Source of the DNA: Ceratodon purpureus
Lineage: Eukaryota; Streptophyta; Bryopsida; Pseudoditrichales; Ditrichaceae
Length of the DNA: 64,000 bases
Reading direction: 5' to 3'
NCBI GenBank assembly: GCA_014871385.1
Contig: CM026426.1
Coordinates: 106,622,030-106,686,029 of the forward strand
This document shows positions 13,282 through 64,000 of this stretch, one piece after another. The notes below the pieces were generated by a model. It searched no databases, was not told where the DNA came from, and saw nothing but the letters and a program-made list of their open reading frames with translations. Position 1 is the stretch's first letter; the number at the start of each line of letters is the position of its first letter. Made by a program: the position numbers and the translations under genes.

Positions 13282-13722
13282 CATTAGGGGAAAAATGGGG
13301 TCTCCATAGGGCCTTGTAAGGCAGCCCGGATTAGATGAGCTTCCTGCCTACTGACACTTCTCTGCAAAATCTCATTGGTGGATATCCTGCCCGATGACAA
13401 CAGAATTCGCCAGCCTGACAATATGATTCGCCCCGCTGACAACAGGATCCGCTAATGTCCAATGGGGTGACAACAGTGGGCACACGCTCATTGATAGTGT
13501 CATTACTACTTGTTTTGTCCAATGGGGTGAGAGCAATGGGCAACGCCTTTGCTGCAAGCGATTGGCTGGACCCCCCAAATGCCAACTACTGGCACTACTG
13601 GCAGCATTTGGCGACCTGCTGGCACCATTGGTGCCAGCAGGTAAAGTGCACGGGCATGGCCTAATTTTCAGGCACGGATTCCGACCAAAGGCCTTTTGGA
13701 GACCCCAATCTTCCCCTAATGG
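13282..13722. mobile_element. MITE, CATTAGG family, copy 1 (about 440 bp)
   Basis: The ends are inverted: the left begins CATTAGGGG and has TGGGGTCTCCATAGGGCC, the right has GGCCTTTTGGAGACCCCA and ends CCCCTAATGG. The ends match those of the MITE at 22834-23235. There is no coding capacity. Inside lie a duplicated GTCCAATGGGGTGA segment (about 13456 and 13518) and a palindrome at 13615-13641 with arms CCTGCTGGCACC and GGTGCCAGCAGG. The GCTGGCA word links it to the element starting at 55294. Confidence 0.75.
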
Positions 13723-21878: not shown

Positions 21879-24081
21879 ATGGCCCACGTAAAAACCACTG
21901 TGAGGAAAGTGAGTACATCCAATAACTCACTCTGCTTTCTTTCTGATCGTATTACCAAAGCTGGTTCATCTAGCATCAAAAAGAAGAAACTTACGGTGAA
22001 ACTCCACGCACTTGCGCTCCAACACACCTTGGACCCTGACATGCAGAGCACCGGCGCCCACTCAAAACAGCTACTATTCACCGAGACGGTATCTCCACAC
22101 GCCACCACGGGGGACCAGCTGACCACGGATTGAACTTGCTCCCGCTGCCGCCAGCGACTTATCTCCAACGACCTTGAAAGCGACCGTGACCCTCCCTCTC
22201 GCATGTCTAACCTCAACACCGCATCGCCCGTGCTCTCGGCGACTATGCCATATCTGCTCCTCGTTGGTCCTTAGCCTGCCACTTCTGCGACTGCTACGCC
22301 CATCCTCAACTTTCCTAGCTTCCTTGGCTCTGCAACAACCTTGCCCCCCTCGACAACTGCTCCTACCTCACCGCTTTAGTTCGGCCACCCCGCCTCCATT
22401 CTAAGCCCTGGACACTCCAATTCCAACCCCACCGCAACCCAAACCAACGTTTCTCAAGTACAATCCATCCATTTTTCTGCTTTTACTCACCACCTTTGGC
22501 TTACAAACTCCGTCCATGAATCTATCAACATCCAAAGTGGACTTCCTAAATGAAGTACTTATGGCTTTGCTCAACTAGATACCTCTTGTATGATAGAAGC
22601 AGAAATTCAAGAGTACCATACTTGTAAGCACTCGTTTCCCCACGTCCCGTAGCAGCACTTCACAGCTACCCGCCCTGATGGCATCGTAGGACAAAATTAC
22701 CATCTTACTCAAATTCCTTGCGGTATTGCTGTAGACACCCAAAGAGGCCTCTACCACACTCATCAGATTGTTATTCGCTTTGACTCCGGTTACCACGAGA
22801 TGAAGAAGCCAGAAGTCGAAGCCGCTGCCCTAGCCATTAGGTGTAATTTGGGGTCTCCAAAAGGCCGTGTAAGCCTGCCCTTTCTAGGTGAACCCCCTGC
22901 TTTGGGCACCTCTGCCGCTGGCAGCGGATGCCAGAGTTGCTGCCCGCACAGGACTGCGTGGCGCACTCACAACAAAGGTCCTCGGAATATTAGTTGAGAC
23001 ATGAATGATCGGCTTGGGGTTTGGTCCCAAATGGTCAGATTGTGTCAGCCCGGCACTGTAGCTTGTGCCCTCCACACGCCTCGCGGGGAGGTCATTGGTT
23101 CGAGCCCCCGTGGCGGTTGCTGGCACCACGGTGGCACAGGACGTGCCACGTCAAAAAGTACGCGGGCAGCGCCTGTTTTTTTCTCTCACGTGCCGCTTAC
23201 ACGGCCTTTTGGAGACCCCAAATTACACCTAATGGCGCTTCGAGTCCATGGGCGTACCTCTCCCAAACAGATTTCAAGAATTGTCTCTACGTTAGTACAC
23301 CCCCACACCATAAAACTTGCTAGGTTTTTTAAAAGTAGACATGTTAAATCCTAGCACACATGGTATTGCCCTCCTTAAAGGCAAGCGCATATACACCCTT
23401 CTACTCAAAGACTTTAGTTCTGTCATAGGTAAGGTTGTGAAAGGCTTCGACTTCCCCTCCACTGCTTCAAACTACCACCTATCCATCCAAAGTCCTAGCC
23501 TCTCCCGCTTCAGCTCTCAGCAACTCTTCGGTGAACTCATCTCGCTCGGTTACCTCGGTGGCACCAACCTCGAATTCATTGGGGTGACTAAGGTAACCAA
23601 CGAGCTTGAAACCGGAGAAATCATATTAGTCTCGGAGTTGAGTAAGCAATTGCTTTTATCCACCCAAGTCTTCTTTGATAGTCACCGCCTCGTCGTCACC
23701 TCCTCCTTCCCGGATCGCTCTACAAAACCACACGCTCTTGATGCCCTCCCCTCCTCCGTCCTTGTCCGCGGGCTATCTGTAGAGTATTCCCAGGTTCAAA
23801 TCTCTGCTGCACTTCATAAAATGCTAGGTCCTAACAATGTCCTTACAGTGACATATAATCGGGCAATTGGAGATACCTTAGGGTGCCATGACGGCGTTGC
23901 TACTATATGTTGCATGAATGTCGTTGTCTACACATATTGGTGTAATAGGCACGGCATTCCCTGTCTTGGCAGACTAATTGACTTCACGCCTCACACCCGG
24001 AGCCTAACAAGGCTCACCGTGCGGCCACCACCCGTGCTTATGATCAACGCCCCACTCATGAGGTTATTGATGAGGCTATAA
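21879..24081 (+). pseudogene. LINE ORF1 (broken, split by a MITE)
   Basis: The front piece starts at ATG 21879 (MAHVKTTVRKV..) and has a basic SSSIKKKKLTVKLHALALQH segment. After an unclear middle and the inserted MITE, a 254-residue frame (23317-24081) follows with LLLKDFSSVIGKVVKGFDFP, a VLVRGLSVEYSQVQISAAL segment, ALHKMLGPNNVLTVTYNRA and a close GIPCLGRLIDFTPHTRSL. The VLVRGLS..I..AL pattern followed by strands resembles the RRM-like fold of LINE ORF1 proteins that bind the element's RNA; that is inference from pattern only. A shorter frame at 24126-24413 (EITLQAVEGRIRNHITNIGG) is helix-rich and may be its C-terminal tail in another frame. The copy is not functional as it stands. Confidence 0.5.
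22834..23235. mobile_element. MITE, CATTAGG family, copy 2 (402 bp, 41-bp perfect TIRs)
   Basis: The terminal inverted repeats at 22834-22874 and 23195-23235 match over all 41 bases (CCATTAGGTGTAATTTGGGG.. and its reverse complement). It lies inside LINE ORF1. The right arm, read on the minus strand, matches 55294-55546 over about 250 bp. Inside is a GGTTCGAGCCCC word that looks like a tRNA-gene B box, and CCGCTGGCAGCGG (about 22915), a perfect odd palindrome of the motif enriched at 55-64 kb. It looks young compared with its host element because the TIRs are identical. Confidence 0.9.
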
Positions 24082-52900: not shown

Positions 52901-54573
52901 ATAGACGTCCCAATGCCAACGTCGACCACAGCGAATGCGCCTTCATCCATTGGTGCTTCTGAGATCTCACGAAGTCTCATTGAGAAGAGGAAGGCCAAAC
53001 TATATCCTCAACCAACTTCTTCCGCTGGAGCTTCGATTTCCACACATGTTTCCGTCTTCAATTCATCTGTGGATTCCATGTTACGGCGAAATAAGAGAGA
53101 GGAGAGAAAAGGTGGCGACCCGGATTGGATCAAGACTCAAGACTTCATTCGCAAGGTATGTTCCTATATTTTTACATTTCATGGATTCAGCCACCTCTAC
53201 TCGCTTTGTAGTTTCTAACTGTGCTTTTTTCATTCCTCAAGTTTGGAGCAGGCCGCGAAAACGAAGTTCCGGACCGGTGCAAACAAGAGGACCATCTGGG
53301 AGTCGACTTGATCATTGCCGACATCCCTGAGAATCTTCTCGTCCCATCCGTTTCCGTTCCCCCCACGAGTATTCCGCCTTGGAACTCTCGCGAGAAGGAT
53401 TATGTGTACGACATCTTCCATTTTGCAGATAAATACCTGCAGAAAGATGGTGCCATCTGCCTCATCTACAACATTGATCAGAAGCTGGCTAAGGATATCG
53501 ACGAAGAAGCTGCTGGTGGTGACTACGTGCTCTTCAAGGACTGGTGGGGCGTCAATGTCCTCGGCCTCACTTCTCCTGCGAACCCCGAGAACTTGGTACT
53601 TTTCGTAAACATACCCTTCTCTTTACTTACTGATAACCCTTCCGCTTCATTTTACTCACTAGTTTTGCTTCACTGCAGACTATGCGGTTCTGGATTCGCG
53701 TCTACGTTCGTAGTGGCAGTACTTTCTCCTTCCAGACAAAGAAATCCGAGCTGATACATGGACTCCTCAACATTACCGAGAGTGATGCCATTTTCAACTT
53801 CACCGATGTGGAATCTCAGCTCATGAATGGGGAGGTGCCGTGGAGAGGCCCAAAGGAGAAATCCCCTGAGATGATGCAGAGCATCATTGAGGAGCTGTCC
53901 AAGCCCGGCGACATAGTCCTTGATTGGAATGCTGGGACAGGTAACTCTTCTTACATATCTCTGCTTCATTTTTCCTCTCATTTTTTCCACAGTTTCTCAT
54001 TTCTTTGTTTCTCTCCGACTTTCAGGGGCCTCCATCAAGGCCGCCCAGGCTGTTGGTCGTCACATTCTTGCTTTTGAGGAGGACGAAGCCATATTCAACG
54101 CCCTTCTCAAACCGAGCATGGCTGGACCATCTGCCATGGGCCCTCCTAAACATCCAAGGCCGGCAGCAGCAGGCGAAGCGCCTCCAAAGAGAGCAAGACC
54201 TGATAAGTGGTGTAAGTCTTCTATTATTTGTTCAAATTATCCAATCATTACTTCTCTTTCCAGCTCTACGTACTCGATCTAACCACAATCGGTTCTCTAT
54301 TGCAGAGTAGTTTCGGCAACACCGCCACGTGGGCCAAGAGCAGTGTCCACTCCATCGTGGCGTCTTCATTCCAGCCCGATTCAGCCTTTCATACTTCCGG
54401 ACTACGCAGAGGACTTAGCACAGGCGTTTCAATCTGGAGCCCTGACATATGTTCCTAGTCGGCCAAGTACTTTTGATCCCAGGGCCCTTCTATTCGTTGA
54501 TGACGAGGCGGTAGAAGGAGATTCAGAGTCATCTAGTTCTGAGAGTGGAAGTAGCGATGGTAGCATGTTCTGA
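49993..54573 (+). CDS. Multi-exon gene: Pol II tail-like repeats, ParB-like domain, permuted DNA-methyltransferase-like domain
   Basis: The proposed exons are 49993-50034, 50154-about 50576, 50721-51313, 51405-51600, 51746-51943, 52005-52058, 52149-52390, 52482-53155, 53242-53595, 53679-53940, 54026-54211 and 54308-54573; nearly all joins are GT..AG and keep frame. Exon 2 has YMPTSPVYEPTSPVYMPTSP (50310-50369), like the RNA polymerase II tail. Exon 3 holds a ParB/Srx-type box, VWEGNHRLSAWLRH (about 51160). Exons 9-11 form a methyltransferase of beta-type order: DLIIADIPENL (53320) in the place of DPPY, then KPGDIVLDWNAGTG|ASIKAA and GRHILAFEEDEAIF, the AdoMet-binding motif I. DPPY reads DIPE, so catalysis is doubtful. 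The tail is acidic and Ser-rich. Whether exon 2 joins exon 3 is unproven, because its frame ends in a stop; the long exon 8 seems to have about two interruptions, so this copy may be decaying. Confidence 0.65.
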
Positions 54574-55293
54574 GTTTGAAGGAGGCTTCGGTCTTTCATT
54601 GTTTTCATTGGATTTGATTTGATTTAATTGGAGTTCATTGCGTAATCCTTCGTCTACTCTACTACCCTGAACCTAAACTTGTTACAATTCTCATTTCCAA
54701 ATCGTCTCCACGTATGTAGAGGATGAAATGTCACAACTGTAATGCTTGAAATATAATATGAAGAATGACATGTTACAAAAGAAATGCTCAAAATTTAAAT
54801 TGCGCTGTAACTTATATTTTAACCATTCAAAATCCCACATTTCCTTAGCCATGTTACCTATTCTTGACTTGGTGTACATCTTGGTATCTGCTACTCCATT
54901 ATTGTACACGAACTCTGAAATATTCTACAAACTTTTAAGACCATTTATTTTAGTTGGTTTCGAGTTGTCTTATTCCTAGAATCGTCTATATTATCTAAAA
55001 CCATCATGCTGGAATACTCGTATCTAGATCCAATAAATGACCAAATCTAAAGGAATGTATTCGAACACCCCGCTAGAGTTCACAGTACTAATCCTTCGGA
55101 GGATATACAGTCCAACTCTTGTCCATATCAAACCAGCAAGTTTCGCCATCCGATATGATCACTTCGGGCAGCTGAACAACTGGATTCTCATCGACGTTTG
55201 ATAGCAAGGAATACGGGATTAGGGACAACTCCATAATACGGAGAAGCTCATTCGTACAAAGCACTGTCCAACGCCATTCACCTTCACCAACAT
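54574..55293. other. Intergenic stretch between the methyltransferase-like gene and the 55-kb element
   Basis: It is AT-rich with no recognised gene or repeat. The methyltransferase-like gene's 3' UTR is expected here, but no clear signal stands out. Confidence 0.4.
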
Positions 55294-55546
55294 GCATTAG
55301 GAGAAAAATCAGGTCACAAAAAGGCCGTGTAAGCGGCACGTGAGAGAAAAAAACGGGCGCTGCCCGCGTACTTTTTGACGTGGCACCAAACATGCCACCG
55401 TGGTGCCAGCAACCGCCACGGGGGCTCGAACCAATGACCTCCGAGCGAGGCGTGTGGAGGGCACATCTACAGTGCCGGGCTGACAGCGGACTGGCGGAGC
55501 AAGGACCAGATCCCGAGCCGACTGCTCATGTCAGCAAACTTTCTGC
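55294..55546 (-). repeat. Terminal region shared with the 402-bp MITE
   Basis: It is homologous to the reverse complement of about 22985-23235: the outer 20 bp have diverged, then near identity covers GTGTAAGCGGCACGTGAGAG, the GTACTTTTTGACGTGGCAC segment, GGTGCCAGCAACCGCCACGG and GGGCTCGAACCAATGACCTC. On the minus strand this contains the GGTTCGAGCCCC word. Confidence 0.8.
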
Positions 55547-56236
55547 CAGCACTTTGAACGAGGAAATTATGAGTCCGCCCACCTACCTCCCCCACCGACG
55601 ATGAGTGAGTGCCGAAGTTTTTGAACTTCGTAGGGAGAGTGAGTGCAGCCAGCAGGTGTTCGGCGCTACGGGAGAAGGCACGCACTTGGGAGATTGGTTG
55701 CAGCCAGCGGGAGTTGGGGCTGAGAGGATTCCAGCTGAATTGGGAAAGTGGGTGTGGGTTAGTGCGAAGGGAGAGACACATGATTGTGGAAATTCGGTGC
55801 CGGCAGCAAGAGTTAGCACTTGCTGGGAGTTGACTAGGTGATTTGGGGTTGTGGGTAATGTTCATGTAGCGAATTGTGCTTGAGTAGTTACTTGCTGAAT
55901 CAAGGTGGAAGTGCGGCTTTCTTCGCTGTCAACTCGATGTGCCGTTTGCTGCCAGCGAGCTACAGAACTAGGTAATTTTTTTTTCAATATGATCAATTCC
56001 ATGTCTTGACATGATCCAAGCTTTCCTGCCTCCTGGGGGCAACGTTGTGATTAGGCATGAATTCCTCAAACTTCATCTCTGATTACAAACTCAGGATTTT
56101 CCTCTCCTCAAGTGCTTAAACTATGCAAATTTGATTTTCTCTGTGCTGGCAGCATGTTCCCTCGCCTTGGTTGGTACGAAAGGGAGGTGTTATAGTTCAT
56201 TTCTGTGTCTCCCAATACCTTGGGGTTTAGGGAAGC
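55547..56236 (+). other. Leader region before the BAH-like gene
   Basis: No confident gene is seen. It contains further GCCAGC words (about 55545, 55652, 55698, 55934 and 56147) and short overlapping frames. A first exon or the promoter of the next gene may be here. Confidence 0.35.
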
Positions 56237-57475
56237 ATGGCCAGACGGCCAAAATCGATAGTTCAGAGCGTAATTTTGCACAACGATCAAGATGTCCACG
56301 GCAATTGGATCCCAATGAGGCTGGACCGGGATTCGTGGGTTCTGCTGCAACCAAAGTCGGAAGGGCCTTGGGGTAGAGAGGCAAGGCGGCATGGTGGAGA
56401 TAATTTTCGAGGGGCCTTCAAGGCTCAAATCGTGGATTTCTCATGGACACCTGGTGTGCGTGGAGCAAGCAACCTGGATAAGGTGCTTGTTCGGCATGCG
56501 TATCAGCCTCGCCAATTAAGCTTGGATCCCGCTGTGGCAGCAAGTAGGCAATGCACGGCAAACTACCTATACTCCTCGCACTTTGATGATTGGGTGCACC
56601 CCACGTCTATCATCAGTCCCATTCTTGTGCTCCATGCAGAGATTGGGGAGGCGACGCGGAATGGTCGAAGCCATATAGACTTGTTGGACACGCGTACATT
56701 CTTCCTTGGTGGCGTATATTTTCCCCCGGTAGAGCCTACGTTGTACGGGAGGATAGAACCAATCCCGCTCCCTGGTTTCAACGACGTGGAGTGGCCTTTG
56801 CCAGACATGCACACCTCCGAAGCCTTCAGGACGAAGCTGACAGCAGATTTTTCGAATGCGATGAAAGCGTCCACTGGCAGTAGTTTCGCCCATGAGCAAT
56901 GGTTTATGCCTGTCCATGTTATGGTGGACTTGTTTGCGATCGCATGTGACAGCATTCGGCGCACTCCTACACTCTTCGTTCTACACTCTCCGTCGGAGGC
57001 ACTCCTAAGTAGTCTGATGAATCCAGGATGGGCTGAGAAGTTTCACATTGGCCAAGATGTTATCAAGTGCGATGTGAATAGGTCCAGCGTTGTCTTCAGG
57101 TACCATGTGGGCAGGCAATTATTATACACCAGGTTCCAGTATACAAGGTTTCGGGGTGCTGCCAACAACAGATGGGATGCGATTGACCATCTACCAGAGG
57201 TGGAGATGGTAGAAGTCTGCTGTACATTTAGAGGGAGACCAATGCCAGCATTTGAAGTGGGCAAGGACTGGCCTGTATCCCACTTGCGCCATGAAATTGC
57301 AATGACGCTCGGAGACGATGATCCCAAAGAGTACAACATGGTTCTGGTGGAAGCAGACGGTTCACGTGAGAAAAAGGTACATGTAAGCAGCATCACCCCA
57401 TTGGTTTTAGATATGGAAGGTGCTGCTGCTTGGTATCAGCATAATTGTACTAACGCATTATGTTGGAGGCATTGA
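56237..57475 (+). CDS. Unknown 412-residue protein with a BAH-like N-terminal region
   Basis: The frame is uninterrupted from ATG 56237 to TGA 57475. Residues 20-130 (DRDSWVLLQPK, NFRGAFKAQIVDFSW, VLVRHAYQP, NYLYSSHFDDWVHPTSII) have the spacing of a BAH domain: a regulated start, an interface strand, a polar wall and the YSSH..D..HP..I close. That fold reads chromatin marks in other proteins. The middle (TRTFFLGGVYFPPVEPTLYG, FAHEQWFMPVHVMVDLFAIA) is unrecognised. Residues 330-395 (VCCTFRGRPMPAFEVGKDWP, VSHLRHEIAMTLGDDDPKEY) could form a ubiquitin-like fold. It is the first gene after the element's terminus, on the opposite strand to its two neighbours. GCCAGC/GCTGCC words occur within the coding sequence (about 57157 and 57243). 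Domain calls are pattern-based only. Confidence 0.6.
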   Translation: MARRPKSIVQSVILHNDQDVHGNWIPMRLDRDSWVLLQPKSEGPWGREARRHGGDNFRGAFKAQIVDFSWTPGVRGASNLDKVLVRHAYQPRQLSLDPAVAASRQCTANYLYSSHFDDWVHPTSIISPILVLHAEIGEATRNGRSHIDLLDTRTFFLGGVYFPPVEPTLYGRIEPIPLPGFNDVEWPLPDMHTSEAFRTKLTADFSNAMKASTGSSFAHEQWFMPVHVMVDLFAIACDSIRRTPTLFVLHSPSEALLSSLMNPGWAEKFHIGQDVIKCDVNRSSVVFRYHVGRQLLYTRFQYTRFRGAANNRWDAIDHLPEVEMVEVCCTFRGRPMPAFEVGKDWPVSHLRHEIAMTLGDDDPKEYNMVLVEADGSREKKVHVSSITPLVLDMEGAAAWYQHNCTNALCWRH

Positions 57476-58118
57476 TGTAGATCAACATACGTAATGAGAG
57501 GCGTGTACTTCTTGGTGAGGTGGCGGTTCCCAAAACCATCAAGATAGTAGAGGTGTAGGACAACAACGATTTCACCACGGCATTAAGGTGATCTATTAGT
57601 GTCTTCACAAGTCTGCCTACAGTATTTGAGATGACTCCATGTTTCACTAGACCAATGCCAGAATGACTATTACACTTGTAAGGGACTATGCTTTGTGCTT
57701 GACAGATCATGTATGGTACATATATGGTCAATCATGTAACCTTCCCCCTTGATGAATGAAAGTCTTCTTCTAGAACATGTTGCTGTCAGCACACATTAGG
57801 GTTCACGACCAAGGCGACTTCCATACCATCACGACCAATGTGGCAGCCACATGTACAAGATAGAAATAAAAAAGGATAACATTCATCATAATTATCGAAA
57901 AAAAATGAGGTTCGGTTTTTTTAAAGTCTGACCCCACCCCCCCCCCCTCCCAATCGGAACTACTTACACACTGCGGCCAGCAACTACTTGCTGGCACCGC
58001 AGCTGTGAAAATAGAGTCGAAAATCAGGGCAGCAAATGTAAATGCAACGTGGCACAAACTAATAGCCACTAATACTAATCCGCTATGGCACTATGAACCA
58101 AAAAAAAAACCACAGACT
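57476..58118. other. Convergent intergenic region
   Basis: The 3' ends of the BAH-like and RING-like genes face each other here. A perfect inverted repeat GCCAGCAA-CTAC-TTGCTGGC lies at 57976-57995, and a run of C at about 57938-57950. Confidence 0.5.
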
Positions 58119-60029
58119 CTAAGCCTCTACTGAGGTCGCGATGGCATCAACTAGCTTCTCCAGGGCAGATCCAGCCGGGTCTTGAGATGTCCCCCCGGAC
58201 TTGGTGGTACTGGAGCTGAGTCCACCACCATGAGTGGCTGTGTCCTCGGCCTCCTGGCGTGGAGGGGCTTGTGTCCCCCGCTGGAAGCTGAGGTCATCTG
58301 ACTTCTGGGTGCTCGCAACACCATCGCCATCCCCTCCATCTGCTGGCAGCACGGCCGTGGATACCAGGGGCTGAGCGGAGATCTTGGCGATGACATACGG
58401 ACCCGAAGCCTCGGACTCCTCCAGAAAGCGAGTCTTCTTCTTGACTTGGTTTTCCTCCCCCAAAGGAGGAGAAGAGCGCTCAGCGGCCCTCTTGCTGCCA
58501 GCAACGGGGCTCTGGAGGTCTGGTGCTCCCACCTCGGACTTGAGAACCTCAAGGAGGTGCTGCAGCTCCGCTTGAGCCGACTCATGCAGTGGAAATCCCC
58601 ATTGCCCAAGCCATCTTCCACTCAAGGAGCGGCAGCAACGGCTACACTTGGCGTCAAGGGAGAAGACAACCTCAAACATGCAATGTGGGTGTGCTGAGCA
58701 GCCGCAGTTCAAGGGTACACAAGCAGCGTCAACAAAGTACCGCGCACAGAAGGGGCAAGGGTCGGAAACCTGAATGGGGAGGGCTCGAAACTCGGATGGC
58801 AGGTGTGGGAGCACACTCTTCGGGCGAATGAATGCCGCTGCCAGCTCCAGGGTCATGATCTCCACGCTAAGAGCACCAATCTCGGCCTTGCACCTCTCTA
58901 TGTCCCCCATCAAAGCATCCATCTGCTTCTCCTTGTTGTCAATGCGAAGCTGGGCTTCTTCGGCAGCCTTGCTCGCATTGGCCATCTGATCACCACCTAG
59001 ACGGGCCAGAGCATCCAATCGCTTCTTCTCTGCCGTGTTGCCAGCGGCCGCGGCTATCTTGCTGGCAGCACGGTGGGCAGCAATCTCCTCATAGAACCGG
59101 CCCTCCTCATCCTCCTTCTCCTGCATAGAGGTCCTCTCGTTCTTGATATCTCCTTCAAACAACTCCCTCTGAGCCTCCTCCTTCGTGAGGTCGGCCTGAA
59201 ATCTCGCCTTCTTGGCCCTGGCCTGGTCCAGCTTCGCCTTCGGATCCGTGCTGGGTCGGTCTTCATCCTTGCTGCCAGCAAGTGAAGACTTGGGCAAGCT
59301 CTCCTCCTCAGTGATCAAGGGCGCCTTCGACTTGAGGTGGCTTCGAGTGCGACCCCGAGCTCCCAATGCTGCAGGCGCTCCCTTGCTACTGCTCCCCGTA
59401 ACAAGGACCCCGTGGCTAGGTCCAATGCCGACTCCCTCAATGGCCATGACCGTGTTGCCAGCAGAGGGTCTGTCGGGGATGTGGCCAGCGAGCACGTCGA
59501 TGAGGGCCTCGATCTGCTCTCTGAAGGCTGGGGGTGTGAGCTTGAGAGGGTTGCGGGCATCTTTCTTATCACGTGCCTTCTGCAAGGTCGTGGCTTTCTC
59601 TGCCCAGTTGACGTCTTCGCCCAGCTCGAAGGTCACATGACAGCCTCGAAGGAAGGAGGTACCAAATGTCCCGTTGTCAGGGCCTTCACCTCCATACACC
59701 TTCGCATGCTGGAGTGTGTAAGCCTCGACAGCCTGCTTGTCGGTGCAGTCAGCAATGTGGTGGCGCCCTCCATGTCGTTCCGGCCACCTCTTAATGAACA
59801 AGGATTTCTTGCATACCTTGTCACTGCTGAGCTCGGTGAAGGAGATCCCTTTCTTGCACAGCCCAAGCGCACGGTTGAAGAAATCGACGTCGTAGTTTGC
59901 GCTCTTCCTACCAAGAAGAAAGGGCGCCATCACCACGGCCTTGTCCGCCACATCCTGCGGTAGAGCCTTCAGGTCGAAAGGGAGGTCCCACTGCGTGAGA
60001 ACACCGTCGTCCTTGCTGCCAGCAACCAT
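58119..60029 (-). CDS. Coiled-coil protein with a RING-like zinc finger (636 aa)
   Basis: The frame is intact. I start it at the ATG at 60029 (MVAGSKDDGV) because the upstream extension lacks an ATG. The N-terminal 150 residues (WDLPFDLKALPQDVADKAVV, RWPERHGGRHHIADCTD) are unrecognised. Residues about 250-400 form a long charged coiled coil (KLDQARAKKARFQADLTKEE, KEKQMDALMGDIERCKAEIG). About residues 425-475 carry a RING-type metal pattern: CPFCARY, VPLNCGCSAHPHC, AKCSRCCRSLSGRW, that is C-x2-C..C-x-C..H-x2-C..C-x2-C. RING fingers usually recruit ubiquitin-conjugating enzymes; that role is inferred. The Ser/Gly-rich tail is disordered. The palindromic word TTGCTGSCAGCAA occurs repeatedly in the coding sequence, giving AGSK three times. 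Confidence 0.75.
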   Translation of the reverse strand: MVAGSKDDGVLTQWDLPFDLKALPQDVADKAVVMAPFLLGRKSANYDVDFFNRALGLCKKGISFTELSSDKVCKKSLFIKRWPERHGGRHHIADCTDKQAVEAYTLQHAKVYGGEGPDNGTFGTSFLRGCHVTFELGEDVNWAEKATTLQKARDKKDARNPLKLTPPAFREQIEALIDVLAGHIPDRPSAGNTVMAIEGVGIGPSHGVLVTGSSSKGAPAALGARGRTRSHLKSKAPLITEEESLPKSSLAGSKDEDRPSTDPKAKLDQARAKKARFQADLTKEEAQRELFEGDIKNERTSMQEKEDEEGRFYEEIAAHRAASKIAAAAGNTAEKKRLDALARLGGDQMANASKAAEEAQLRIDNKEKQMDALMGDIERCKAEIGALSVEIMTLELAAAFIRPKSVLPHLPSEFRALPIQVSDPCPFCARYFVDAACVPLNCGCSAHPHCMFEVVFSLDAKCSRCCRSLSGRWLGQWGFPLHESAQAELQHLLEVLKSEVGAPDLQSPVAGSKRAAERSSPPLGEENQVKKKTRFLEESEASGPYVIAKISAQPLVSTAVLPADGGDGDGVASTQKSDDLSFQRGTQAPPRQEAEDTATHGGGLSSSTTKSGGTSQDPAGSALEKLVDAIATSVEA

Positions 60030-60840
60030 GGTTGCGACAAAGCACGCACTTGTTAGTGACACAATGTACCCTAGTATGTAAGCTCACTAACTCTTAAGTA
60101 CATTATGTAGGAAATAGACTCCGCAAATGCATACTCTCTTTGCGGACAGCAAACACTGTAGCTAAAAAAATTGAGCATTGGCTTCTTCAGTACAGTTCAG
60201 CGAATTCTTTGCTCTGACTACCTCCTAGAACAGTGCACTCACACGTGCTACAGAGTGTGTCTCCTTAGCATAGACTAAGTTCAAGTTGAAAATCCGAGCC
60301 CAACTAAATGAGTGAATTGGAAATTCAGAGTTCAAGATGGGAGCTTACCTAAGTTGCGGCGCGGCCTCCAAGTTCCGGCCTTGGCCTCCACCGGCGTCCC
60401 TCCTGCACCTCGCTTCCGCCCCAGCTCTCGCGCCCCACGTCGTTGCCGCACTCTGCTTTCGCGCAGATGTTGCTGCTGCACCCCAGCTCTCGCGCCCACC
60501 TTCCGATGCCAACCGTCCCGCGCCTACCTCGCGCGCCTCAGCCAGCTCCCGCAACCTCCACGGTGCTTCACCGCCGACCCTTCGCTGCTGCACCGTCGTG
60601 CACCCCAGCTCCCGCGTCAAGACTGCGCCCTCCTCCGGCAGCAGCTCAGTTGCGAGCTCGTTCCTCAGGTCGGAGGTGCGGGACTCCCTCTGCTGTCAGC
60701 AACGTTGTAAAGAGGGGGGGAGGAGAGCGCTCCTGCCCCTCTTGACACCGCGGGGGTTTGCAAGCCCGCGGTCATGGGTGCTTGACCGGGGCATTAATGT
60801 ACTCCCCCTCTCAGCCTGTCCCATCACATTAAGGAGCTAA
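60030..60840. other. Leader of the RING-like gene, C-rich block with hairpin
   Basis: From 60340 to 60700 the plus strand is C-rich, with Pro/Ala/Ser-rich frames up to 167 codons that I do not trust as genes. A hairpin with arms ACCGCGGG/CCCGCGGT lies at 60747-60772. Confidence 0.35.
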
Positions 60841-61737
60841 AAAAAATATCATCAATTCCGGAAATAAGAGAAGTGGTTGGGAAATTTTTAATAAATTATT
60901 ATAATTTTTAATAAATCTCGAAGATCATAAAAACAAAAAAACAAAAAAACAATGGGAGGAAAAACATAAAGAGTGGAGGAAAAATATAAAGTATGGGAAA
61001 AATTAAAAAAACAATGGGAGGAAAAACATAAAAAAATGAGTAAAAACCCAAAAACAAATGATGAGAGATAAGAGAATTCTCTGAAGTTGGAAAGAAAACA
61101 AAATCAAAATAAAAACCAAATGAAAATAAACACGAAACGAAAATAAAAAGACAATAAAACCTTACTCGGCAATTTTCAAAATACTTGACTATTGGGATAA
61201 AATAAGAGAAGTCGAGAAACTAACTAAATCTAAAAATGAAAAGGAAAATAAATAAACCTAAAAACGTAAATTAGTAAGTTAATAACCCAAAAAAGAAAAG
61301 GTTTAAAATAATAATATGTGGGAGGAAAAATCTAAACAGAAGAAAACCTTAGATAATGAAGGATTAGGGAGATGTCCAAAATCTATATGGAAAAAGAATT
61401 AAATGAAGATAAAAGTAATGGTGGAAAAAAATGAGAAGGGAGAAAAAAGAAAAAAGAAAACATGTATCTCCAGAAAATGGGTAGAGAAAAAAAAAAAAAA
61501 AAAAAAAAGGAGGAAAAAATCCGAAATGGGGGATAAATATAAAGAATGGGGGGGAAAGAGAATAAAATTAAATTAAAAAACAATGGGAGGAAAAACATAA
61601 AGAATGGAGGAAAAAAATAAAGAATGGAGGAAAAAAATAAAGAATGGGGAAAAAAAAAAAGGAAAGGGAGAAAAAGAAAAAAGAAAAATGTATCTCCAAA
61701 AAACGGGTAGAGAGAAAAAGAAAAAAAAAAAAGGAGG

Positions 61738-61770
<33 letters not shown>

Positions 61771-62590
61771 TAAAAACCCAGAAAACAAATGATGAGAGAT
61801 AAGAGAATTCTCTGAAGTTGGAAGGAAAACAAAATCTAAACAAAAACCAAAATGGGAAAAAATAGAATAAAAAATAAATAAAGATAAAAGCTCCAAAATA
61901 AAAAATAATGAACGGTAAGAGAATTATCTGAAATTGGATGGAAAAAAATAAAAGAAAGACAATATAAAAACCAAATGAAAATAAAACCTTATTTGAGCTT
62001 TGAAATTAAAAAGATAAAATAAAAAAAAATAAAAAAACATACAACACGATAAAAATCTAAACAGAAAATAAAAACCAAAATGAAAATAAAACCTCACTCG
62101 GAAATTTTAAAAATACTTGACTATTGGAAAAAAATAAGAGATGTCGGGGAACTAACTAAATTTAAAAATGAAAAGGGAAATAAATATAAATAAAAAAACA
62201 AATTAGTAAGTTAGTAACCAGAACAAGAAAGGGTCTTAAATAATAATTTGTGGGACTTAAATGACATGGAGACATAATCTAAACCAAATGAAATTTAACC
62301 CTTATTTAGCAATTTCAAAAATACTTAAATGCAGGGGAATAAAAAAATAAAAGATAAAAGAATTATCTTACTCTTATTTGTCTGAGTATGGACGATGTTT
62401 CTTTGACTATGTATTCGCACATCTACTAAATTTTGAGAGTGAATTGACTAAATTTTTGAATTTTTTAATATTATTTTTAATGAAAGTGTACATTTGAAGA
62501 CAATTCAAGCGTTCATGTAACTACTCGCTTCACTATCCTCTCTATAGAATACAGTATCTTTGAAAGGCATTACTTCTTTGTAACATTACC
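60841..62590 (+). repeat. A-rich purine stretch with internal duplications
   Basis: The plus strand is dominated by A and G, with poly-A runs at about 61490-61508 and 61738-61767. Blocks are duplicated: AAACAAATGATGAGAGATAA followed by GAGAATTCTCTGAAGTTGGA occurs at about 61050 and 61785, and an ACTCGG..AATTT..AAAATACTTGACTATTGG block at about 61163 and 62097. CAATGGGAGGAAAAACATAA occurs at about 60950, 61012 and 61580. Phe-rich minus-strand frames are a by-product. Confidence 0.75.
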
Positions 62591-62639
62591 CTTCTACAAA
62601 ACATTGTATACCAAAAAAAACTCCATGACTCTGAGCTCC

Positions 62640-64000
62640 CTAGTCGCTGTCAGCATGTGCAATGTCGACATCGGGGGCAATATCCTCCCCGGCACCCCTG
62701 TTGCCAGCATCCGCGATGTCCTCATCGTTGTTAGCAGCGTCCCTCTGTTCATCTTCCTCGCCCCCACTGCCAACCATGTCCCCGTTGGCATTCCATTCCT
62801 TCTCTTCTTCCATCATCCAATCTCCTTCGTCCTCCACGACTTCTTCAAGAACATATGCTCGTCCAACACGCCTCCTCCTTGACCTCCACTCCTGGCAGGC
62901 AATGGCAGCGTTTGATTGTTGCCACCGCTCGCGTCTCCTGGCCGCCTCAATGGCCCGTGCTCCGTCATCCGGGTCAGGTACAGCTCCCTGGATTTCCATT
63001 TTTTTCCTATATCGATGTTGTATGTTTCGGTACCAATGCTGGATCTGCTCGAGAATCGCACTAGTACGGGCTTTCCCACCACCATGGGCTGTATGTGCCT
63101 AATGTGCTGCCTTCGCTTGGTGGTGAGATTTCTCCATGCCTTGGCAGCTCCAGACTCCAAGGCTCTTATAGTGTTCCACAAACCAAGTGGAGTGCCGTAC
63201 AATTACGTGCTGTCAACAAGAAGAAGGAAGTTAAAAGCCGGATACTTAGGTCAAGTAGACAACAGTATGGTTAAAAGCCGGATACTTAAGTCACTGAAGA
63301 AACACCAAAAGTGGACAACAGACAGAGCCGTGAGCATACCATATAATGGGTAACATGCTCCTCTCCAAAGGCCTTTAAGTATGCCTTTCCCCACTTGTGT
63401 ATCTTCCGCTTGAATTGCATCCGTTGCTCTGCTGTCAACACCAATACTGTCAAATTTGGTACGACATCTTCAAAGGCTTGCCACATCTGGTACTTTGCAA
63501 TGCGGTCAGCCCCATTTCCGGCATTATTATTCTCACCTTGACATATATCCTTCCAGGCCTTATCATTGCCAGACCAAACGCTTGGCCTAAAAAGCCTGCT
63601 GGCAACGGTACCACTCAAAGAGGGTTTTTGCGGCACGTTTCCGGTGTTGCCACTGAGCTTGGGGTCCCTCTTAATCTCCACGTTTCTACCATGAGCCCCA
63701 ATCGCGGACAACGACTTCTCCATTTGTTCAATTGCAGTAGCCCTCAGTCTCTGATTCTGTATGTTCCAAACATACATGATATGCATGTGCACTATCTTCT
63801 CCGTCAATCGAACCAAGGCATGCAATGTACAAATGTGTACTCTGGACAAAGGAATCGGTAGGATAGGCCTCCACCTAGTAGATGTTGCCATGTCACAAGG
63901 TTCCTCAGGTACGCTGCTGGAAAATAGCCCCCCCACCCAGTTTGCTTTACCACGGCTCTTGATGGCAGCGTTTGCCTGGCTTCCTGTCCCCGCAGTGGGC
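62640..64000 (-). pseudogene. Transposase-like gene, 3' part (5' end outside window)
   Basis: Coding is open from the right edge (QANAAIKSRGKANWVGGLFS) to about 63350. It contains HICTLHALVRLTEKIVHMHI, SLSGTVASRLFRPSVWSGND, AFEDVVPNLTVLVLTAEQRM and WGKAYLKAFGEEHVTHYM, then GTATGC, a likely donor. The next exon starts after an acceptor near 63210 and reads VIVRHSTWFVEHYKSLGVWS, CQGMEKSHHQAKAAH, an in-frame TAG, then AHTAHGGGKARTSAILEQIQ and HWYRNIQHRYRKK, followed by a basic and then acidic tail ending at 62640. The lHAlvRltE helix and the later G.wS.QG.EksHh.aK..H..T..gG....S..Q...W pattern look like the C-terminal half of a DDE-type transposase, where the final Glu lies in the GMEKSHH segment. 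The superfamily is not identified. One stop suggests this copy is dead or misassembled. Confidence 0.5.

Follow-up and report, generated by a model that had tools for sequence, protein, structure and literature searches.

A large multi-gene DNA transposon of Ceratodon purpureus with a probable RAG1-type transposase, insertion without target-site duplication and a dispersed palindromic motif

The element and its boundaries

We analysed a 64,000-nucleotide stretch of the genome of the moss Ceratodon purpureus (assembly GCA_014871385.1, contig CM026426.1, positions 106,622,030 to 106,686,029 of the forward strand), here called the window. Its last 8,706 bp belong to a DNA transposon of 11,328 bp that begins at window position 55295 and ends outside the window at window coordinate 66622 (C6:106688651); coordinates within the element become window coordinates on adding 55294. 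The element ends in CATTAGG...CCTAATG, with imperfect 40-bp terminal inverted repeats (TIRs), of which 36 bases are identical, and carries three genes, numbered 1 to 3 from left to right (Table 1). Its limits were obtained by aligning 39.5 kb, from window position 54001 onward, with seven other loci, where some copies of the element are roughly complete, others carry internal deletions or interruptions, and the flanks are independent, and from two paralogous empty sites. At least 40 genomic copies of the left terminus were found, with 94-100% identity among the matches listed, so the terminus is not a chance resemblance. Chance or an assembly artefact as the source of the element is excluded by these copies together with the alignment to other loci.

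A preliminary description, made from the letters of the window, had placed a terminus at 55294 and proposed a new, large transposon with BAH-like, RING-like and transposase-like genes, parental to two short elements in the same window. The terminus is real, with its first base moved to 55295 by comparison with the empty site; the inverted partner lies 2.6 kb beyond the window, and the three genes are present. A terminus lacking an inverted partner, or copies of it never accompanied by the genes, had been named beforehand as evidence to the contrary, and neither was encountered: a second family of copies has the three genes in the same order. What had been observed is therefore confirmed, and its interpretation is supported in part.

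The element sits in another repeat (window 54001-55294, and 66620-67559 beyond the window) whose copies are 92-95% identical in the loci L024-L027, and the unoccupied ones represent the empty site. We also note that window 60057-61040, upstream of gene 2, does not align with the copies at C6:76619200 and C6:86918100, which are otherwise well matched; judging from these alignments, copies seem to have exchanged the sequence ahead of gene 2.

Table 1. Features of the transposon and of related short elements, in window coordinates (TIR, terminal inverted repeat; MITE, miniature inverted-repeat transposable element; dN/dS, ratio of nonsynonymous to synonymous divergence between families I and II)
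Feature	Position	Strand	Remarks
Transposon, family I copy	55295..64000, continues to 66622	+	Boundaries from copy alignment and two paralogous empty sites
Left TIR, CATTAGG...	55295..55334	+	36/40 bases match the partner ending ...CCTAATG at 66622
Palindromic motif GYTGNCARC	55479..64000 (window part)		27 sites in the 11.3-kb element, by motif count
Gene 1, exon 1 (380 residues)	56237..57376	+	76% amino-acid identity to family II; dN/dS 0.13
Gene 1, short exon 2 (probable)	57481-57558	+	By eye: GT-AG, join identical in both families
Gene 2 (636 residues), coiled coil and Cys/His cluster	58119..60029	-	dN/dS 0.35; no Pfam match above cut-off
A/purine-rich spacer	60850..62500		Genes 2 and 3 on either side; from reading the sequence
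Gene 3, exon C, H(4)H and catalytic E	62640..63209	-	Premature TAG near 63100; uninterrupted in copies L012, L021 and L028
Gene 3, exon B, two catalytic Asp and C(2)C	63340..64000, to 64448 beyond the window	-	First Cys of C(2)C reads Arg here
Gene 3, exon A	64557-65826, outside the window	-	
MITE, family I-like derivative, 400 bp	22835..23234		40-bp perfect TIRs
MITE, family II-like derivative, 440 bp	13282..13721		End matches to family II

Two families and their short derivatives

Part of gene 3 was used as a genome query, and the best 150 of 880 candidates were scored. The first 111 resemble the window element (family I; 83-100% identity), and the remaining 39, at 77-81% identity, belong mostly to the second family, family II. 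The family II copy that was read whole is 10,801 bp long, with ends of a similar kind and all three genes, whose order and strands are unchanged. Family II has spread very recently, since 32 of the 40 left ends listed are identical over 300 bp and the 40 right ends listed share 98-100% identity. Between the families, dN/dS for gene 3 is 0.18 (for genes 1 and 2 see Table 1), with dS values of 1.2-1.5 that are near saturation, so all three ratios are rough; on these ratios the three genes look selectively maintained. Family I appears to be over-represented on C6, the largest contig, which carries the window and which we take to be sex-chromosome-like, its size fitting the V chromosome of this moss: 74 of the best 111 listed gene 3 matches, all family I-like, lie on it, although at 110.5 Mb it makes up 30% of the 362.5-Mb genome, in contrast to 7 of the 40 listed left ends of family II.

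The two short elements, miniature inverted-repeat transposable elements (MITEs), are derivatives by deletion, one of a family I-like and the other of a family II-like element, and their ends match those of the two families. The first, described before as 402 bp long with perfect 41-bp TIRs at 22834-23235, does have perfect TIRs, and the slightly larger figures include flanking bases (Table 1). Its right arm is collinear with the terminus of the element for 192 bp, rather than about 250 bp, and is 90% identical to it there (E = 3e-71). The second, given as 13282-13722, is related to the terminus as claimed and ends at 13721; it is closer to the sister family, matching family II over 121 bp at 82% and over 67 bp at 91%, with a best match to family I of 75% over 67 bp.

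Other derivatives and variants were seen along the way. Four pairs of family II left and right ends lie only 2.7-6.2 kb apart and share 98-100% identity with the full element (C7:11553997-11556688, C2:14737823-14741317, C2:6409292-6415479 and C1:24061880-24067516); from their spacing and identity these are probably young deletion derivatives. A third end variant (CATTAGGTGCAAA...) occurs in three family I copies (L071/L072, L081/L082 and L089/L090), resembles the TIR of the MITE at 22835 and perhaps marks a further subfamily. Finally, two gene 3 matches of the 78% kind, at C10:4795453 and C10:4803124, lie 7.7 kb apart in opposite orientation, an arrangement that would be expected of two copies with their right ends facing each other.

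Insertion without target-site duplication

We read the flanks of 30 copies, 20 of family II and 10 of family I. The standard ends CATTAGG...CCTAATG stand at both sides in 28 of them, and two family II copies with one mutated end each were dropped, leaving 28. None of these shares 3 bp or more between its flanks; 2 bp are shared in two copies (1.75 expected) and 1 bp in nine (7 expected). At the empty site of the window copy, represented by two other copies of the surrounding repeat, the flanks are joined exactly. The joined flanks of 14 further copies were also searched, which gave uninterrupted paralogues for five among 40 places scored and none for the other nine among the places listed. In the nine paralogous places that we read, four of the five copies proved exact at the junction and one (C10:15416500) had one extra base. 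Altogether the empty sites indicate zero bp in five of six copies and 1 bp in the sixth, and together with the flanks they argue strongly for an unstaggered joining with an occasional 1-bp offset.

Among 12 positions examined, the clearest target preference that we saw is a weak one three bases away from the junction, where 47 of 56 bases are A or T (P = 2e-5 for a background of 57.5% AT). ATG, which the window copy by itself would suggest as a target-site duplication (TSD), was rejected, as copies have ATG at their right end whatever the flank.

The three genes

Gene 3 had been described as transposase-like, and it is a probable transposase. It has three exons encoding 963-982 residues, with an N-terminal coiled coil. 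The residues D14, D111, C131-x2-C134, H361-x4-H366 and E386 of its core, numbered as in family II and in L012, a copy of family I, are identical in these two and form a D-D-E arrangement that includes C(2)C and H(4)H, in the register of RAG1. In the best local alignment with RAG1, a single ungapped stretch, H361, H366 and E386 fall on H937, H942 and E962; the residues given for mouse RAG1 are D600, D708 and E962, with C727/C730 and H937/H942 (PMC4914335). The second Asp is separated from the CxxC pair by 20 residues in gene 3 and 19 in RAG1, and by eye an LH pair stands ahead of a helical insert in both. On this residue pattern gene 3 is likely, though not proven, to be a DDE transposase, and DDE chemistry is strongly suggested.

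Gene 1, of about 405 residues with its short second exon, had been called BAH-like, and a register KVxxRxxYxP...SSHFD that recalls BAH domains is visible by eye. Homology to BAH was not borne out. Profile searches of Pfam and NCBIfam yielded nothing better than noise, and the window protein had no Pfam match even at E 10. Smith-Waterman alignments with four BAH domains (two proteins) were no better than those of shuffled sequences, 155 to 558 of 1000 of which reached the score, and hhalign gave a probability of 0.2%. The end of exon 1 looks, by eye, like a ubiquitin-like fold.

Gene 2 had been described as a coiled-coil/RING protein. The coiled coil can be recognised by eye, and the cluster C-x2-C-x13-C-x-C-x2-H-x2-C-x11-C-x2-C, kept in both families, fits a C4HC3 RING only in the spacing of its eight metal ligands; the proteins of both families gave no Pfam RING match. 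In PDB sequence searches with genes 1-3 nothing fell below E 0.012. A literature search found no paper that mentions a BAH domain, a RING finger and a transposase together with a DNA transposon.

A palindromic motif dispersed over the element

The palindrome GYTGNCARC recurs along the whole element. It was counted 27 times in the window element and 28 times in the family II element, compared with 11 times in 133 kb of other sequence of the genome. The form GCTGNCAGC was found 16, 18 and 2 times, respectively, with 0.2-0.4 expected from Markov simulations; it is about 100-fold enriched along the element, coding sequence included, and rare elsewhere in the genome. The wider pattern YTGNCAR is only 3-4 times enriched, so a general richness in CHG contexts does not explain the motif. 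Coding exons hold 18 of the 27 sites of the window element and 15 of the 28 of the family II element. When synonymous codons were shuffled, none of 1000 shuffles reached the GYTGNCARC count in five of six gene sequences, and 3 of 1000 did in the last. For GCTGNCAGC, none of 1000 did so in gene 2 or gene 3, but 50 and 19 of 1000 did in gene 1, where there is a single site. The mean spacing is about 400 bp (425 and 383) with a coefficient of variation of 0.9, and only 10 of the 27 and 28 sites occupy aligned positions in the two families.

We then looked at the motif across the genome, where TTGCTGNCAGCAA occurs 962 times and a reversed control pattern 8 times. Among 50 listed TTGCTGNCAGCAA sites, all on contig C1, 23 lie in copies with both ends and 13 in copies inferred from one end or from exon B. 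The other 14, fetched because they seemed to lie outside, include 13 in diverged or MITE-like family members, so that 49 of 50 fall inside the transposon family. Four stretches chosen by the motif alone were all family members, and L104 and L107, MITE-like pieces some 400 bp long, have two sites apiece. From these counts the motif would be nearly a signature of this transposon, its density being alike in both families while its positions change.

Two further observations concern single sites. The sole listed site outside recognised copies (L105, C1:8291878) has only 20-24-bp matches to family II nearby. One of the 10 aligned sites coincides in both families with the acceptor at which exon C of gene 3 is spliced (window 63209; GTTGACAG|C, minus strand), and some sites may be kept for splicing.

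Classification

The name Lanisha comes from Maumus, McDaniel and Carey, who work on the moss Ceratodon. Among the listed papers that use the name, one deals with transposons. Proposed as a novel superfamily in Repbase Reports in 2020, Lanisha is placed in the CMCT group (CACTA/EnSpm-Mirage-Chapaev-Transib/RAG1) and described as EnSpm-like (PMC12730594). In the same account, CMCT elements have two motifs in common, C(2)C and H(3-4)H, which lie after the second D and before the E; they mostly have CA..TG ends and make 2-5-bp TSDs (PMC12730594). The catalytic signature of this group (D, D, E; C(2)C, H(3-4)H) is found at the level of motifs in family II and L012, and the 5'-CA..TG-3' termini in the 28 of 30 fetched copies. 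Compared by description only, Lanisha resembles our element as an EnSpm-like DNA transposon that has the C(2)C and H(3-4)H motifs, and differs in the TSD attributed to its group. We infer from these motifs that the element probably belongs to Lanisha, which makes the claim of a new transposon doubtful, as the superfamily was already named; the large DNA transposon with an inverted partner stands.

Other known systems share fewer features with the element. CACTA/EnSpm transposons are large elements with accessory genes and a RAG1-like DDE enzyme with zinc ligands, a likeness to the present case. They also share the CA..TG ends, although here the ends read CATTA and not CACTA, a 3-bp TSD is absent, motifs occur throughout the element and no Pfam CACTA match was found. 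The RAG1, Transib and ProtoRAG systems are similar in the H, H, E register, in the spacing from the second D to CxxC and, by eye, in the LH before the helical insert; unlike them the element has other ends and no 5-bp TSD, and no RAG2 or Kelch partner was recognised.

Proposed mechanism

We consider it probable, at roughly 0.8, that this is a cut-and-paste CMCT transposon, probably of Lanisha. A RAG1-type DDE transposase from gene 3 would cut at the CA...TG ends of the TIRs and join them to the target without a stagger, or occasionally with one of 1 bp, so that insertion would add the element alone. Genes 1 and 2 would provide accessory proteins under selection, a dimeric protein would bind the palindrome, and internal deletion would give rise to the MITEs. 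The reader of the motif is probably a homodimer because the site is palindromic, and most simply it would be encoded by the element itself, by gene 2 or by the coiled-coil N terminus of gene 3; such a protein might let the element recognise and act on its own copies.

The RAG1-type assignment draws on shuffle tests as well as on the motifs. The gene 3 core scores 60 against RAG1, with a shuffle mean of 36 and 4 of 2000 shuffles reaching the score. For whole gene 3 proteins 3 of 500 and 1 of 500 shuffles do so, and for a 90-residue end region, picked after the resemblance was seen, none of 2000. Several points weigh on the other side. The same test gave 10 and 29 of 500 for gene 1, 263 of 500 for gene 2 and 39 of 500 for gene 2 of family II; it is therefore not very specific, as gene 1, presumed to be unrelated to RAG1, scores somewhat high, and so does family II gene 2. 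A single hhalign comparison of gene 3 with RAG1 gave a probability of 7.6% (E 0.0046). The search against transposase families by hidden Markov models, which the preliminary description had called for, yielded no Pfam match that identifies gene 3, and neither did NCBIfam, PDB sequences or phage; the lowest E values, 0.0055 in Pfam and 0.012 in PDB, belong to coiled-coil or unrelated entries. The search for viral relatives gave 170 stretches that fit a pattern, none of them confirmed, and none in phages. The roughness of the dN/dS ratios and the lack of the 2-5-bp TSD with which CMCT elements are described count on the same side. In the window copy, moreover, exon C has a TAG where L012, L028 and family II have glutamine, and C131 is replaced by Arg. 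The description of this stretch as the autonomous parent may thus hold for the family and not for the window copy, given its premature stop; the window copy may move in trans.

As to what the palindrome is for, we tentatively put first, at clearly less than even odds, an anti-silencing address: a protein of the element would bind along each copy and strip or block repressive chromatin. The analogy is with VANC of the Arabidopsis VANDALs. VANDALs are MULEs and, like the present element, multi-gene plant transposons densely set with a short motif of their own. VANC21 acts through such a densely repeated motif (PMC5735166, PMC10398659). The copy-specific density, all but one of the 50 listed sites falling in the family, would fit such a role, as would the very recent spread of family II and the turnover of positions at constant density implied by only 10 aligned sites. 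In the published passages, however, the motifs of VANC are found mostly in tandem repeats of noncoding sequence and in one orientation, whereas here the sites are palindromic and lie in coding sequence in 18 of 27 and 15 of 28 cases. Furthermore, no protein homology to VANC was seen in Pfam, to which that search was confined. A literature search found no account linking an element-wide palindromic motif of a transposon to anti-silencing.

A little less likely, and still a real possibility, is that the palindrome serves transposition itself, as a set of sites for a TNPA-like accessory protein that pairs the ends or compacts the element. CACTA elements use many short accessory-protein sites, and the MITE-like L104 and L107 keep two sites each at a length of about 400 bp. 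The sites of CACTA elements, however, crowd into the subterminal few hundred bp, whereas those of our element extend across its 11 kb, on average about 400 bp apart. We regard it as unlikely that the palindrome is instead a site for a host protein, a silencing signal or an ancestral repeat retained by descent. The CTG and CAG of the palindrome are two CHG contexts, and 10 of the 27 and 28 sites do occupy aligned positions; most sites are nevertheless not common to the families, and the counts in genes exceed those of the synonymous-shuffle controls.

With regard to the missing duplication, a CACTA-like element whose 3-bp TSDs decayed or were lost by recombination would account for the CATTA ends and the CMCT motifs. 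It is very improbable, as family II, in which 32 left ends among the 40 listed do not differ over 300 bp, is too young for such decay, and as paralogous empty sites are exact in five of six copies. More improbable still is a relative of Spy (PHIS), the sole TIR transposon without TSDs in the relevant survey passages and of a different kind (PMC4482050), which shares the missing TSD with our element. Spy has AAATTT as its target (PMC4482050), whereas our element shows a weak preference for A/T at the third flanking base (47/56), and its transposase motifs differ from the C(2)C/H(4)H of the CMCT kind found here.

Significance

In its fullest form, the proposal would be that of a RAG1-type plant transposon which combines blunt joining with an element-wide palindromic address, spanning coding as well as noncoding sequence and read by its own protein against silencing, and hence of a second, independent case of VANC-like self-recognition. 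This combination is rather unlikely, and we offer it as a speculation. If blunt insertion is true, the enzyme group of RAG1 and CACTA would cover target staggers from 0 to 5 bp, a range that would help to learn what determines the stagger in enzymes ancestral to V(D)J recombination. The palindrome, in turn, would offer a directly testable case of a transposon marking its own copies.

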